Shown: piece by piece, positions 2,590-6,967 of the stretch
Layout of the letters: each line of letters opens with the position of its first letter
Position numbering within the stretch: position 1 is the first letter of the stretch
NCBI RefSeq assembly: GCF_000024265.1
Contig: NC_013204.1
Location: 1,538,180 to 1,602,179, forward strand
Reading direction: 5' to 3'
Length of the DNA stretch: 64,000 bases
Source: Eggerthella lenta DSM 2243
Lineage (GTDB): Bacteria; Actinomycetota; Coriobacteriia; Coriobacteriales; Eggerthellaceae
Notes under the pieces: generated by a model
Databases searched by the model: none
Seen by the model: only the letters and a program-made list of their open reading frames with translations
Told to the model about the DNA's origin: nothing
Translations under genes and position numbers: made by a program

Positions 2590-3228
2590 ATGCGGGGGAA
2601 GGACACGAAGGAACGCATCGTCGAGGAGGCGTTCGCGCTGTTCGCATCGCGCGGCTTCCATGCGGTGTCGGTGCGCGACATCGCGGCTGCCGTCGGCATC
2701 AAGGACGCGTCGCTGTACAATCATTTTTCCGGCAAGCAGGCCATATTCGACGCCATCGTGCGCGATGCGCTGGAGCGGACGCGTCGGTTCTTCGGCGAGC
2801 GCAACATCCTGTTCGACGTCTCCGACGACGCGACGCCGTACGAGGAGATGAACGCCGAGCGCATGCACGAGATGGTGCTGCCGTCGTTTCGCTACTTCTT
2901 CGAGGATCCGTACATGGTGCGCCTGCGCCATTTGCTGGTGATCAGCCAGTTCGAGAGCGAGGAGGCGGGGCGCGTCTACCGCCTCGTGTTCGTCGAGCAG
3001 CCCATGGCGCTGCAGCGCACCATCTTCGAGCACCTCATGGCCACGGGCGAGTTCGTCCGCGACGACGCCGCGCAGATGGCCGTCGAACTGCAGGGCGTCC
3101 CGTTCATGCTCATGCATGCGGGTCTGACATGGGAGGAAGCCGAACCGCGGCTCGCCGCCCACGTCGAGCGGTTCGCGCGGGCGCATACGGCGGCGGGGCG
3201 GGGCATTCGAGGAGGGGAGCGGGCATGA
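2590..3228 (+). CDS. TetR/AcrR family transcriptional regulator
   Basis: 212-residue one-component regulator. The N-terminal TetR helix-turn-helix (residues about 10-55) is canonical: ALFASRGFHAVSVRDIAAAV, then the recognition helix ending DASLYNHFSGK. The C-terminal ligand domain is all-helical and gives no clue to the inducer. A GAGGAG lies just upstream of the ATG. Its stop overlaps the next start (ATGA at 3225-3228), so it is co-translated with a flavodoxin-like protein. The promoter carries two palindromes, implying autorepression; the likely output is this three-gene operon. Confidence 0.9.
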   Translation: MRGKDTKERIVEEAFALFASRGFHAVSVRDIAAAVGIKDASLYNHFSGKQAIFDAIVRDALERTRRFFGERNILFDVSDDATPYEEMNAERMHEMVLPSFRYFFEDPYMVRLRHLLVISQFESEEAGRVYRLVFVEQPMALQRTIFEHLMATGEFVRDDAAQMAVELQGVPFMLMHAGLTWEEAEPRLAAHVERFARAHTAAGRGIRGGERA

Positions 3229-3791
3229 GCACGGTGGTTGTGTATTCGTCGCAGACGGGGTTCACGAAGCGCTACGCGGAGTGGCTTGCGGAGGAGCTGG
3301 GGTGCCAGGTGGTGTCGCTCGGCGACGAGCCGCGGTTCGACGCAAGCGGTTTCGACGTGGTGGTGCTGGGCGGATGGCTTCATGCGGGAGGGCTCGCGGG
3401 CAAGAAGTGGCTTGCGCGCGCCCGTGAGAAGCATCTGCAGACGCGGTTCGTCGTGTTCGCAGTGGGCGCGACGCCCGTGGAATGGACCGACATGGTGGAA
3501 GAGGCGCTTGCCAAGGAGCTGCCGTCGCCGGAGTTCGATGACGTGGAGCGCTTCTACCTGCGCGGCGGGTTCGCCTACGAGCGCCTGGGCTTGCCGGACA
3601 AGCTGGCCATGAAGCTGTTCTTCAAGATGCAGGAGAAGAACGCCGCCGCCGACCCGCGCGCCGCCGAGATGCTCGAGGGCATGCGCGGCGGCTTTGACGG
3701 CACCGACCGCGCCGCCATCGCGCCGGTCGCGGCGCGCGTCCGCGCGCTTGACGCCGCCGCGGTGTCGGCGGGAAGCGCGGAGCGCGCATGA
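3225..3791 (+). CDS. Flavodoxin domain protein
   Basis: 188-residue soluble protein opening with a beta strand and the FMN-phosphate loop SSQTGFTKRYAEWLAEELG (residues 7-25), the hallmark of flavodoxin-like folds. GGWLHAGG around residue 50 and FAVGATP near residue 87 fit the FMN-ring loops. It resembles the flavodoxin/HemG-like group that carries electrons between redox partners; the substrate is not deducible. Start chosen at 3225 because it overlaps the tetR stop and gives the complete N-terminal strand; the frame is open further upstream without a domain match. Its stop overlaps the next gene by ATGA. Confidence 0.85.
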   Translation: MSTVVVYSSQTGFTKRYAEWLAEELGCQVVSLGDEPRFDASGFDVVVLGGWLHAGGLAGKKWLARAREKHLQTRFVVFAVGATPVEWTDMVEEALAKELPSPEFDDVERFYLRGGFAYERLGLPDKLAMKLFFKMQEKNAAADPRAAEMLEGMRGGFDGTDRAAIAPVAARVRALDAAAVSAGSAERA

Positions 3792-4216
3792 ACGCGGCGC
3801 GCCGCATCGTGCGTGTCATCTGCGTGTTCAACGGGGTGTGCGCGGTGGTGTGCGGCGGCTTCATGATGGCGGGCGCTGCGGGCATCCTGCCGCCCGCGTT
3901 CGGCGAGCTCTTCGGCTTCTTCGACCTCATGGTGCCCTTGATTCAGCGGATGCCGCTGCCTGCGTATATGACGGCCGATCTGTTCTGGCCGGGGCTTGCC
4001 CTTGCGCTCGTGAACGGGGTGGCAAACCTCGTGGCCGCTGTGCTGTTCGCGCGCAGCGATGGGCGCGCGCGTTCGTGGGCGCTGCTGGCCGGCGCGCTGC
4101 TCATCGTCTGGTGCGTGTTCGAGCTCGTGTACCTGCCGAATCCGGTCTCGGTGATCTACCTGGTGATCGGCCTCGTGCAGACGGCATGCGCGGTGGTGAT
4201 GCGTCCCGCGCGCTAG
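3788..4216 (+). CDS. Small integral membrane protein of the tetR operon
   Basis: 142-residue hydrophobic protein with about four predicted membrane segments (roughly residues 8-30, 40-52, 65-88 and 98-138). I do not recognise a family. It is the third gene of the tetR-flavodoxin operon, joined by an ATGA overlap, so it may anchor or partner the flavodoxin-like protein at the membrane; this is inference from position only. Its stop TAG at 4214-4216 overlaps the stop of the convergent gene within a shared CTAG. Confidence 0.75.
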   Translation: MNAARRIVRVICVFNGVCAVVCGGFMMAGAAGILPPAFGELFGFFDLMVPLIQRMPLPAYMTADLFWPGLALALVNGVANLVAAVLFARSDGRARSWALLAGALLIVWCVFELVYLPNPVSVIYLVIGLVQTACAVVMRPAR

Positions 4217-4806
4217 CGGCGCGCGGGTTCGTGCCGCATGAGGCCGTGGGCCGTGCAGTACGTGTAGAGCTTCGCGCCGGCGAGGCGGGGCAGGCGCGCT
4301 TCGGCGCCCTGCTCGGGGTAGAGTTTTTCGACGGCCATGCGGTCGAAGCCCACGACGGCGACGAAGCCGAGGTGGTGCTGCTTGTTCATCTCGTGGTCGA
4401 AGGTGACGTACCAGTCGTCCTCGATCGGCTCGACGTGCACGGCGTGCGCCTCGTCGGCTGGCAAGGCGACGAGCGGGGGCAGCTTCCTGCCGCAGCAGGA
4501 CACTTCGGCGTCGCCGGTGGTGACGATCACGTTGTCGCAGGCGGGGCAGACGCGGAATGCGGCGCGTTTCATGGTTCCTCCCGTTCGGACATCGACGGCC
4601 AGGCGGCCGTCGAGCAGCGTTTCCACGGGAGTTCCCAAGCGTTCGGACAGGCCGGGCAAAAGCTCGATGTCGGGACAGCCGCCTCCGCGCTCCCATTTGG
4701 ACACGGCCTTGTCGGTGACGCCGAGCGCGTCGGCGAGCTGGCGCTGGGTGAGCCCGCGCTCCTCGCGAAGCGCGCGGATGAGCGTGCCGGTGTTTCTGGC
4801 GTCCAT
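4213..4806 (-). CDS. XRE-type HTH fused to a desulfoferrodoxin (superoxide reductase)
   Basis: 197 residues. Residues 7-62 are a Cro/XRE helix-turn-helix (GLTQRQLADALGVTDKAVSK). Residues 84-110 match a desulforedoxin-type iron centre with CPAC (87-90) and CC (104-105). Residues 121-190 match superoxide reductase centre II: His124, His138 in DHEM, His144 six residues on, and Cys184-x-x-His187 in YCTAHG, the expected four-His-one-Cys iron site. The lysine beside the first His in desulfoferrodoxins is not present. It could be a superoxide- or redox-sensing regulator, or a detoxifying enzyme that also binds DNA. GGGAGG precedes the ATG. Confident in domains, less in role. Confidence 0.85.
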   Translation of the reverse strand: MDARNTGTLIRALREERGLTQRQLADALGVTDKAVSKWERGGGCPDIELLPGLSERLGTPVETLLDGRLAVDVRTGGTMKRAAFRVCPACDNVIVTTGDAEVSCCGRKLPPLVALPADEAHAVHVEPIEDDWYVTFDHEMNKQHHLGFVAVVGFDRMAVEKLYPEQGAEARLPRLAGAKLYTYCTAHGLMRHEPARR

Positions 4807-4923
4807 GGCGATCCTCCCTGGTTTTTTCGGACGGCGTCTACGATACGCGCGCGCCGCGGCCGGCGCAATGAACGCTCCGTAGAGTCGCGTCTCCCGGCGT
4901 AGCGGAGGCGGCGGACAAGCCCG

Positions 4924-5463
4924 TCAGCGCCGGAGCGCCTCGGCTCGCTTCACGCGTTCGACGAGCACGTCTTTCACGTTCTCGCGCGGAACGGCCAGCG
5001 ACACCGCAAGCTCGTCGCACAGCAGGCCTTCTGCCAGGTCGAAGTACTTCTTGTCCGTGGCGGTGATGCGGCGGCCCGAATCGACGCGCCGGACGGTGCG
5101 CTCGTGGACGGACTTCATGATGGGAACCAGATCCTCGGGCGCGAACGTTCTGAGGCGCTTGTCGTATTCTTCCTTCATGCGGCGCTCCAACAGGGTGGGC
5201 GTGGGCGCGTCGGGCTTGAGGGCATTCTCGTCGATGGTGTCGGCATCCACGATGGAATCGATCAGGGCGAGTGCCGCGCGCTTCGACATGATGGGACGCA
5301 GGTTGTCGGGCGTGGCCTCGTCGACGGCAACGAACAGCTTGAGCGAGTTCTCGAACAGCGCGCGCAGCTCGAGGTAGTCCTTTCCTTCGAAGTAGTTCTC
5401 GCGCAGGGCGGCAACTTCGCAGACATGATGACGGTAGACGACCGTATCTCCGCATGCGTACAT
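4924..5463 (-). CDS. CarD family transcriptional regulator
   Basis: 179 residues. The N-terminal 60 residues match the CarD/CdnL/TRCF RNA-polymerase interaction domain: it opens MYACGDTVVYRHHVCEVAAL, followed by the G-x-YLELRALFE strand pattern. The remainder is helical, like the C-terminal DNA-contacting domain of CarD. Such proteins bind the RNA polymerase beta subunit and tune open-complex stability. It is longer and more divergent than the essential CdnL of actinobacteria, so it may be an accessory paralogue. Single gene with its own promoter (-10 at 5541-5546). Confidence 0.85.
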   Translation of the reverse strand: MYACGDTVVYRHHVCEVAALRENYFEGKDYLELRALFENSLKLFVAVDEATPDNLRPIMSKRAALALIDSIVDADTIDENALKPDAPTPTLLERRMKEEYDKRLRTFAPEDLVPIMKSVHERTVRRVDSGRRITATDKKYFDLAEGLLCDELAVSLAVPRENVKDVLVERVKRAEALRR

Positions 5464-5733: not shown

Positions 5734-6876
5734 CTACGCGAACAGCTCGGCCGCCTTCTCCATGCGCTCGGCTATCGGCACGCCGAAGGGGCAGCGCGGC
5801 TCGCAGGCGGCGCAGGCCGTGCAGTCGTCGGCGGCCGCGTCGAGCGCGCGGTAGTGCTCGCGGATCGAGGCGGGCACCTCGCTTTGCATGACAGCCAGGT
5901 CGTAGAACTTGTTGACGGCGGCGATATCGATGCCGGCCGTGCAGGGCGCGCAGTGGCCGCAGTAGGTGCACTGGCCGAAGTAGGCGTGTTTCGGCGCTCC
6001 CGCCAACACGCTCGCGTAGTCCTTCTGCGCTTCGGTCGCCGTTTCGTAGGCCACGGCGTCGTCGACGTGCGCCGGCTCGTCGAAGCCCGCCAGGATGCTA
6101 GCCGCGGCGGGGCGGGTGAGCGCGTAATGGATGCACTGCACGGGCGTCATCGCCGCGCCGAACGGAGACGCCTCGGCGCTGAACAGACGCCCGCCGGCAT
6201 ACCCCTTCATCACCGTAAGGCCCACGCCCTCGCGTTCGCACAGCGCGTACAGCTCGGCGCGGGTGGGATCCATGCCTTCGAGCGCGTCGTCGTAGGCGAA
6301 GGTGAATGCGTCGTCGAGGCTGGCCGTGGCCGGCAGGAGGTCGAAGGCGGGGTTCACGCTGAACATGACGGCTTCGATCTCGCCGGACAGCGCGGCTCGC
6401 TTCGCCACCTCGGGCGCGTGGGTGGACAGCCCGATGTGCCCGATGACGTCGGCGGCTTTGAGCGCGCGCACGTATTCGATGAACTCCCCGGCCATGATGC
6501 CCTCGTACTCGTTGATGTCGTCGACGTAGTGGATCATGCCCAGCTCCACGTGGTCGGTGCCGAGGCGCGCGAGCAGGTCCTCGAACGCGGGACGCACGAG
6601 ATTCATGTCGCGCGTGCGCACGTACTGGCCGTCTTGCCAGGTGGAGCCGATGTGGCCCTGGATGATCCAGCGGTCGCGCGTGCCGGCCAACGCAGCTCCG
6701 AGGTTGCTGCGCACCTCGGGTCCCGCCATCCAGCAGTCGAGGATGTTGATGCCCGCTTCCTCGCAGCGCTCGACCACGGCGCGCACCTCGGCGGCCGATT
6801 TCTTCTCCATCCATTCAGCTCCGAAGCCGATCTCGCTGATTTCGAGCCCCGTCCTGCCCAGTTCGCGGTAGCGCAT
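5734..6876 (-). CDS. Aldo/keto reductase-fold protein with C-terminal 4Fe-4S domain
   Basis: 380 residues. Residues 1-280 form an aldo/keto reductase-type TIM barrel (opens MRYRELGRTGLEISEIGFG; IGHIGLSTHAPE later). Residues 295-375 carry two iron-sulfur motifs: CTYCGHCAPC followed by TAGIDI, and CTACAACEPRCPFG. The barrel looks catalytically altered: the Asp is kept (NILDCWM) and a His is present (MIHYVDD), but the Tyr of the usual D...Y tetrad and the Lys of the next strand (IIQGHIG) are not seen. It may therefore use its clusters for electron transfer to another substrate. Start 6876 follows GAGAGGGG; a TTG/ATG region further upstream lacks support. Confidence 0.85.
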   Translation of the reverse strand: MRYRELGRTGLEISEIGFGAEWMEKKSAAEVRAVVERCEEAGINILDCWMAGPEVRSNLGAALAGTRDRWIIQGHIGSTWQDGQYVRTRDMNLVRPAFEDLLARLGTDHVELGMIHYVDDINEYEGIMAGEFIEYVRALKAADVIGHIGLSTHAPEVAKRAALSGEIEAVMFSVNPAFDLLPATASLDDAFTFAYDDALEGMDPTRAELYALCEREGVGLTVMKGYAGGRLFSAEASPFGAAMTPVQCIHYALTRPAAASILAGFDEPAHVDDAVAYETATEAQKDYASVLAGAPKHAYFGQCTYCGHCAPCTAGIDIAAVNKFYDLAVMQSEVPASIREHYRALDAAADDCTACAACEPRCPFGVPIAERMEKAAELFA

Positions 6877-6967
6877 ACAAACCCCTCTCGCGATAGTCCT
6901 TCGCGTTCGCATGCAGCACGCTTCCGTACTGCTTCTTGGAGCGAACTCTAATCCAAGTTTTTTCTTC

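Follow-up and report, generated by a model that had tools for sequence, protein, structure and literature searches.

A gene of Eggerthella lenta encodes a 197-residue protein in which an XRE-type helix-turn-helix (HTH) domain is fused to a desulforedoxin-superoxide reductase (Dx-SOR) module. On balance, we favour a reading in which this protein is a redox or iron sensor-regulator, its own promoter is the most likely target, and its gene is read twice, from ATG1 and from ATG79. The gene lies in a stretch of 64,000 nucleotides, hereafter referred to as the window, from a genome that consists of one contig of 3,632,260 bases. The fusion is not a new architecture, since SORGOdb had set up an HTH-Dx-SOR class in 2011, with 19 of 325 SORs (PMC3116461). 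As excerpts of that paper describe it, the class also has the HTH N-terminal to the Dx-SOR module and is defined by the order of its domains; these excerpts mention neither a missing Lys nor an optional centre II or an internal start, which are described here. In the literature searched, the class name was met in a single paper, and no functional study of the class was found. The same searches returned nothing on an Eggerthella lenta superoxide reductase, or on superoxide reductase with internal translation, with neelaredoxin and a conserved lysine, or with a DNA-binding domain and desulforedoxin. Two proteins were considered and set aside, TrtA as a relative and Xtr as a precedent. TrtA of Treponema denticola is a 104-residue, oxygen-related XRE protein for which its authors, in the portion of the paper available, see no functional similarity past residue 81 (PMC12724145). 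For Xtr of C. difficile, the term 'desulfo' is absent from the available part of the text (PMC13260099).

Architecture, fold and genomic setting

The earlier note on this DNA had proposed one 197-residue fusion of an XRE HTH and a Dx-SOR. The open reading frame, the Pfam match, the family profile and the predicted model all agree with this proposal, and the gene is on the minus strand (Table 1). The HTH matches PF01381 (HTH_3) with an E-value of 6.2e-16 and 58.6 bits, against a Pfam cut-off of 23 bits. The C-terminal domain, residues 86-192, matches the desulfoferrodoxin model TIGR00320 with an E-value of 1e-7, at 32.2 bits, which is far short of the equivalog cut-off of 146.9, and the Pfam scan of the protein gave no match to PF01880. 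A family profile made from 58 members, compared with solved structures, aligned to SOR 2ji2 at residues 81-192 (E 6.7e-15) and to the P22 c2 repressor at residues 1-72. The predicted model has a mean pLDDT of 93.1 and a pTM of 0.64, a value at which the relative placing of the HTH and Dx-SOR domains is unreliable. It resembles the SOR of T. pallidum, 1y07, with a Z-score of 14.4 (114 residues, 2.2 Å), and an SOR fold is indicated by Z-scores of 13.1-14.4 to five SOR entries; the P22 c2 repressor is matched with a Z-score of 12.0 over 65 residues. The C-terminal domain is a remote SOR as judged by single-sequence models, and a certain one as judged by profile and predicted structure. Eight relatives (L002-L009) are 47-88% identical across 185-197 residues, the closest named one found being that of Eggerthella sinensis (88%). 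These relatives, together with a model that matches both SOR and P22 c2, show that the open reading frame is not a product of chance.

Table 1 Features of the HTH-Dx-SOR locus in the window.
Feature	Position	Strand	Basis
TetR-type regulator upstream of flavodoxin	2590..3228	+	PF00440 E 2e-16; 9/9 other clade loci
Convergent flavodoxin gene	3219..3791	+	PF12724 E 9.3e-18; 9/9 other clade loci
Small predicted membrane protein, convergent; stop overlaps HTH-Dx-SOR stop	3788..4216	+	2/9 other clade loci
HTH-Dx-SOR gene, 197 residues, ATG at 4806	4213..4806	-	single ORF and domain matches
Predicted short product, free Dx-SOR domain, 119 residues	4213..4572	-	deduced from internal start
SOR-type centre II, H121-H138-H144-C184-H187, Ala120 replaces Lys	4246..4446	-	alignment
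Desulforedoxin-type centre I, C87-C90-C104-C105	4492..4548	-	alignment
Candidate internal start ATG (Met79), then AAA	4570..4572	-	sequence signature
Candidate internal Shine-Dalgarno GGGAGGA, codes part of Thr-Gly-Gly (residues 75-77)	4576..4582	-	sequence signature only
XRE helix-turn-helix domain, residues 10-63	4618..4779	-	PF01381; P22 c2 repressor structure match
Possible promoter TTGCGC-N17-TATCGT	4840..4868	-	-10 part TATCGT kept in nine orthologues
21-bp block, candidate operator or activator site	4865..4885	-	upstream alignment; identical in nine orthologues
Weakly CarD-like gene upstream	4924..5463	-	PF02559 E 0.0098, below cut-off; 8/9 other clade loci

Hydroxypropylphosphonic acid epoxidase (HppE) and its kin, in which a single polypeptide combines an XRE-type HTH and a mononuclear iron domain, were also found among the structure hits. 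Their alignment to the model is confined to the HTH (about residues 1-75). HppE is an enzyme, and its iron domain has another fold.

Furthermore, the survey of HTH-desulfoferrodoxin fusions and their neighbours that the earlier note had suggested yielded 124 HTH-type proteins, and in 9 of 9 other loci of the window's clade, flavodoxin and TetR-type genes face the HTH-Dx-SOR gene. Between the CarD-like and the HTH-Dx-SOR genes, seven of the nine other clade loci (L002, L003, L004, L005, L024, L026 and L028) have an Fpg-type DNA glycosylase gene (PF01149), which the window lacks at this position (4806-4924). L005 and L024 gave equal identities and are probably one locus counted twice. The DNA-repair and redox neighbours are weakly consistent with an oxidative-stress setting. 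Upstream of the CarD-like gene, the window also contains a gene for an aldo/keto reductase whose C-terminal part is a 4Fe-4S dicluster region (5737-6912, minus strand). A family of proteins of about 117 residues is encoded near the HTH-Dx-SOR gene in 12 of the 124 loci, from several clades (L053, L065, L072, L077, L081, L104, L107, L113, L129, L130, L135 and L139); two members of this clostridial neighbour family were scanned and matched no family above cut-off. Elsewhere in the host genome, near G000:C1:1343250-1343633, there is a separate canonical SOR of the EK type.

When the upstream regions of nine orthologues are aligned, no identical stretch is longer than the 21-bp block, which lies next to the possible promoter. 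A single exact copy of its 17-bp core exists in the genome, and the core is found in 16 of 173 loci compared, all from the Eggerthella/Gordonibacter clade, with several repeats among them. A clear dyad is absent from the block, and a consensus promoter scan found no promoter. A genome search with the core, allowing up to 3 mismatches, gave 9 sites against 8 for the reversed control, and the second-best site falls within a long open reading frame. The conservation of the block and the single exact copy of its core suggest self-regulation. Autoregulation via this block would be the simplest reading, but another factor could bind there.

Metal ligands across the family

The family was collected by a C-domain profile search of 138 Eggerthellaceae genomes and of 392 genomes from the class of an Oscillibacter relative (completeness of at least 85), including that relative's own genome. 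Among the matches listed, at least about 45 of the 138 and at least 74 of the 392 genomes have an HTH-type match. From these, 145 distinct open reading frames were taken, composed of 124 HTH-type proteins and 21 stand-alone Dx-SORs, the latter being a chosen sample. The 124 include L106, in which the HTH is cut by the contig end, L039, in which it lies in another frame, and L115 and L133, in whose frames no HTH was found; these four were excluded from the start-site counts (120 rows). L006, which has masked letters, was excluded from the trees and from the count of strong Shine-Dalgarno (SD) sequences. In the tree, a branch with support of 100/99 splits the 124 HTH-type proteins from the 21 stand-alone Dx-SORs.

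In the E. lenta protein, the four Dx cysteines (C87, C90, C104, C105) and all five SOR ligands (H121, H138, H144, C184, H187) are present, so that the complete Dx centre and the four-His-one-Cys set noticed earlier are confirmed. The Lys that SOR enzymes carry beside the first His was also correctly described as missing; residue 120 is Ala. In the profile alignment, H121 is paired with the EKH-motif His of 2ji2. Single-sequence alignments pointed to H124 as the first ligand, and this candidate was rejected, as the family profile picks H121 and position 124 is His in only 12 of 124 members. The published 2Fe-SOR motif, in the part of the source available, is (E)(K)H(x)19-27H(x)5H(x)40-63C(x)2H, whereas centre II is spaced here as H-x16-H-x5-H-x39-C-x2-H. 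The Dx centre has its four Cys in order as CxxC-x13-CC, and the Dx motif quoted in excerpts of the SORGOdb paper is CXXCX15CC (PMC3116461). The protein was not filed as a 2Fe-SOR enzyme because the Lys and three spacings of these motifs differ. It has the same fold as canonical 2Fe-SORs (2ji2, 1dfx and the copy in its own genome) and the same order of the nine ligand residues, but it has no Lys, departs from the motif in three spacings, has an added HTH, and belongs to a separate branch of the tree.

The stand-alone Dx-SORs have E-K before the first His and five SOR ligands in 21/21 and the four Dx cysteines in 20/21. Among the HTH-type proteins, C87, C90 and C104 are each found in 124/124, while C105 is found in 109 (14 His, 1 Asn). 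The SOR ligands are more variable: H138 is present in 123, C184 in 104, H144 in 102, H121 in 86 and H187 in 82, and both centres are complete in 65/124. Lys is found at position 120 in 7/124 HTH-type proteins, compared with 21/21 stand-alone Dx-SORs, and most HTH-type rows have lost three residues from the loop before the first His, which bears this Lys. Loss of the axial Cys requires 5 changes on the tree, and starred branches force at least 4 of these. In the 20 rows that lack it, H121 (0/20), H144 (0/20) and H187 (1/20) are the most depleted other columns, followed by a non-ligand column at 0.15; tree-aware pair tests on ligand loss had 3-5 pairs, which puts significance out of reach. As H121, H144 and H187 vanish along with the axial Cys, centre II behaves as one metal site. 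On these alignments, three Dx cysteines are permanent, and the SOR centre is optional and goes as a unit when the axial Cys goes.

In the short form of the family, the distance from the start to the C-domain is 77-83 residues, mostly 78-80, and this near constancy suggests a rigid link. A long form, found in Eggerthellaceae, has about 154-163 residues ahead of the C-domain (L086, L089, L090, L091 and L093-L100). The axial Cys is gone in 10 of these 12, and in the two that were scanned, L089 and L097, the HTH is followed first by a Zn_ribbon_2 domain (PF12674) and then by the Dx-SOR. Another variant combines C105 to His with H187 to Asp in 13 of the 14 members that have His at position 105 (L040-L042, L048, L092, L126, L128, L131, L133, L137, L138, L140 and L141); these members cluster in the tree and may reflect one event. 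Genome G457, from the Clostridia class, has three relatives, the HTH-type L139 and the stand-alone Dx-SORs L163 and L164, and L163 occupies the end of an open frame of 530 residues. An unannotated 'Bacteriophage sp.' record from human faeces (MT835563.1:21715-22296) encodes a full-length relative, 43% identical over residues 1-191, and is the only one among 121 phage records with a match over 80% of the query. A 55-kb Monoglobus plasmid record (NZ_OY725727.1:48423-48761) has a relative that is 44% identical over the C-domain and is annotated only as a helix-turn-helix protein. Of 37 pattern matches in viral contigs, none was confirmed.

A candidate internal start at Met79

The linker between the two domains, Gly76-Gly77-x-Met79, is spelled GGAGG-N4-ATG. 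This internal start is probably in use, giving a free Dx-SOR of 119 residues. Met79 is the position where stand-alone Dx-SORs begin, so the internal start may descend from the start of an old dfx gene. The same position is what one would expect if the SD and ATG were a fossil of that start at the fusion point and the short product were not made, and 86 of 119 members have no strong SD. The use of codons in the linker makes the fossil unlikely. Codon 76 is GGA in 9/9 orthologues of the Eggerthella/Gordonibacter clade, against 9.8% of Gly codons (114/1158) in the 42 called genes of the window, and of the 69 codons for invariant residues (positions 2-118), no other has A as its last letter in 8/9 orthologues or more. 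In the 21 other members with Gly-Gly, from other lineages, GGA is found at codon 76 in 19 and at codon 77 in 15, against 45/119 at six other Gly columns. The first Gly codon of the family members with GGxM is GGA in 28/30 and GGT in 2/30, and GGA accounts for 7/28 in other genes (826 genes). Moreover, six members have a strong SD that is encoded through residues other than Gly-Gly, for example Gln-Glu-Val in L143. This constraint at the level of codons argues that the internal start is still used.

The strength of the site agrees with this reading. Codon 79 of members with Gly-Gly has a mean anti-SD energy of -10.1 (n=30; 28/30 at -8 or below). True starts average -9.1 (n=119), and the remaining ATGs that lie in frame in the same genes average -2.0 (10/465 at -8 or below). 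For the gene in the window, the energy is -10.3 for codon 79 and -11.1 for the true start. Against this reading, other internal ATGs also have such a sequence: GGAGG is found 3-9 nt upstream of in-frame internal ATGs in 3 of 357 cases in the window, the Met79 site included; elsewhere the counts are 22/775 in high-GC loci and 25/2623 in low-GC loci, both of which include family genes and seemingly misplaced starts. A strong SD is found in 33 of 119 members, all of which have ATG or GTG as codon 79; among the members that lack a start codon there, the count is 0/39 (Fisher p 1.4e-7, a value that ignores relatedness). Relatedness inflates these internal-start counts, and a tree-aware test of strong SD against start codon had 2 pairs on starred branches, too few to decide. 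The mRNA around codon 79 is open in members with the SD, with a mean z of +1.44 and values above 0 in 31/32, which again speaks against a fossil. True starts have +1.31 (107/114), and members without the SD are less open, +0.74 (63/83; p 0.0015); L044, L045, L047 and L074, in addition to L006, were excluded from this comparison. No link was found between a strong SD and a complete SOR ligand set (20/33 vs 43/86, p 0.31). Since the strong SD does not track a complete SOR site, the short product is probably more than an enzyme.

Sensor-regulator or enzyme

The most likely role of the full-length protein, as judged from sequence and predicted structure, is that of a transcription factor that senses superoxide or iron. 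The earlier note offered either a transcription factor sensing superoxide or an enzyme stored on DNA; we retain the former, with iron as a further candidate signal, and consider the latter less likely. We regard it as improbable that the protein is still mainly a superoxide reductase, working without the Lys and using its HTH as a structural or localising module in the manner of HppE-type proteins. The nine ligands, complete in the window's clade and in 65 of 124 members, and the XRE-HTH iron enzymes among the structure hits would suit such an enzyme. Some SORs without the Lys still work, and losing it slows superoxide reduction. However, both forms of the enzyme reading have to contend with the absence of Lys in 117/124, the shortened loop of most members, the roughly five losses of centre II, and the separate canonical SOR of the EK type that the host keeps. 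The separate SOR, the loss of Lys and the ligand pattern point to a regulator in which the SOR site has been put to use as a sensor, and not to a second detoxifying enzyme. It is likely that the protein is a regulator rather than an enzyme; L115 and L133, which seem to lack an HTH, and the XRE HTH of true iron enzymes, seen in the HppE hits, count against this.

The part played by each centre is less clear-cut. Sensing through centre II is possible, and we hold it with some doubt. It is unlikely that the sensor of a regulator is instead centre I, [Fe(Cys)4], or iron occupancy, with centre II as a decaying remnant that takes no part in sensing. Such a sensor would account for C87, C90 and C104 in 124/124 members, while centre II is complete in far fewer, and for a sub-family that has no centre II, two scanned members of which gained Zn_ribbon_2. 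It is less compatible with the way in which loss of the axial Cys brings loss of the other three variable ligands, and with the window's clade, which keeps all five SOR ligands as if the site were in use.

The analysis shows the domains, the ligands, the pattern across the family, the signature of the internal start and the conserved block; we infer that the sensor-regulator which we favour binds iron and DNA, controls its own gene, is also translated from the internal start, responds to the proposed signal and pairs as described below. In this protein, an XRE HTH of the repressor type is joined to a Dx-SOR that has lost the enzyme Lys and part of the lid loop, with both centres complete in the window's clade. 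Oxidation of the C-domain, its reaction with superoxide or its iron occupancy would alter the hold of the HTH on DNA, most likely at the gene's own promoter through the conserved upstream block. Translation from ATG1 would give the full regulator, and translation from ATG79, with its own SD, would give the free Dx-SOR domain, which may form pairs with the full protein or compete with it, and in this way adjust its action. A similar arrangement has been described for TipAL and TipAS of Streptomyces lividans, a full-length HTH regulator and a free C-terminal sensor domain made in-frame from one gene, and TipA regulates its own expression (excerpts of PMC6078987 and PMC2893106). TipA differs in that it has a MerR-type HTH and a thiopeptide-binding domain, which is unrelated to SOR, while the two products are only predicted here.

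For the family as a whole, we propose tentatively, as a reading that may well prove wrong, a class of oxidative-stress regulators that arose from the fusion of HTH and SOR genes and kept the old ribosome-binding site as a working second start. One gene would then give a DNA-bound iron sensor and a free sensor domain that tunes it, and the short product would outlive the enzyme site where centre II has decayed. The internal start suggests a way for a domain fusion to keep both proteins from one gene. If it takes place, sensing via the superoxide-reductase site would be an unusual chemistry in strict gut anaerobes.
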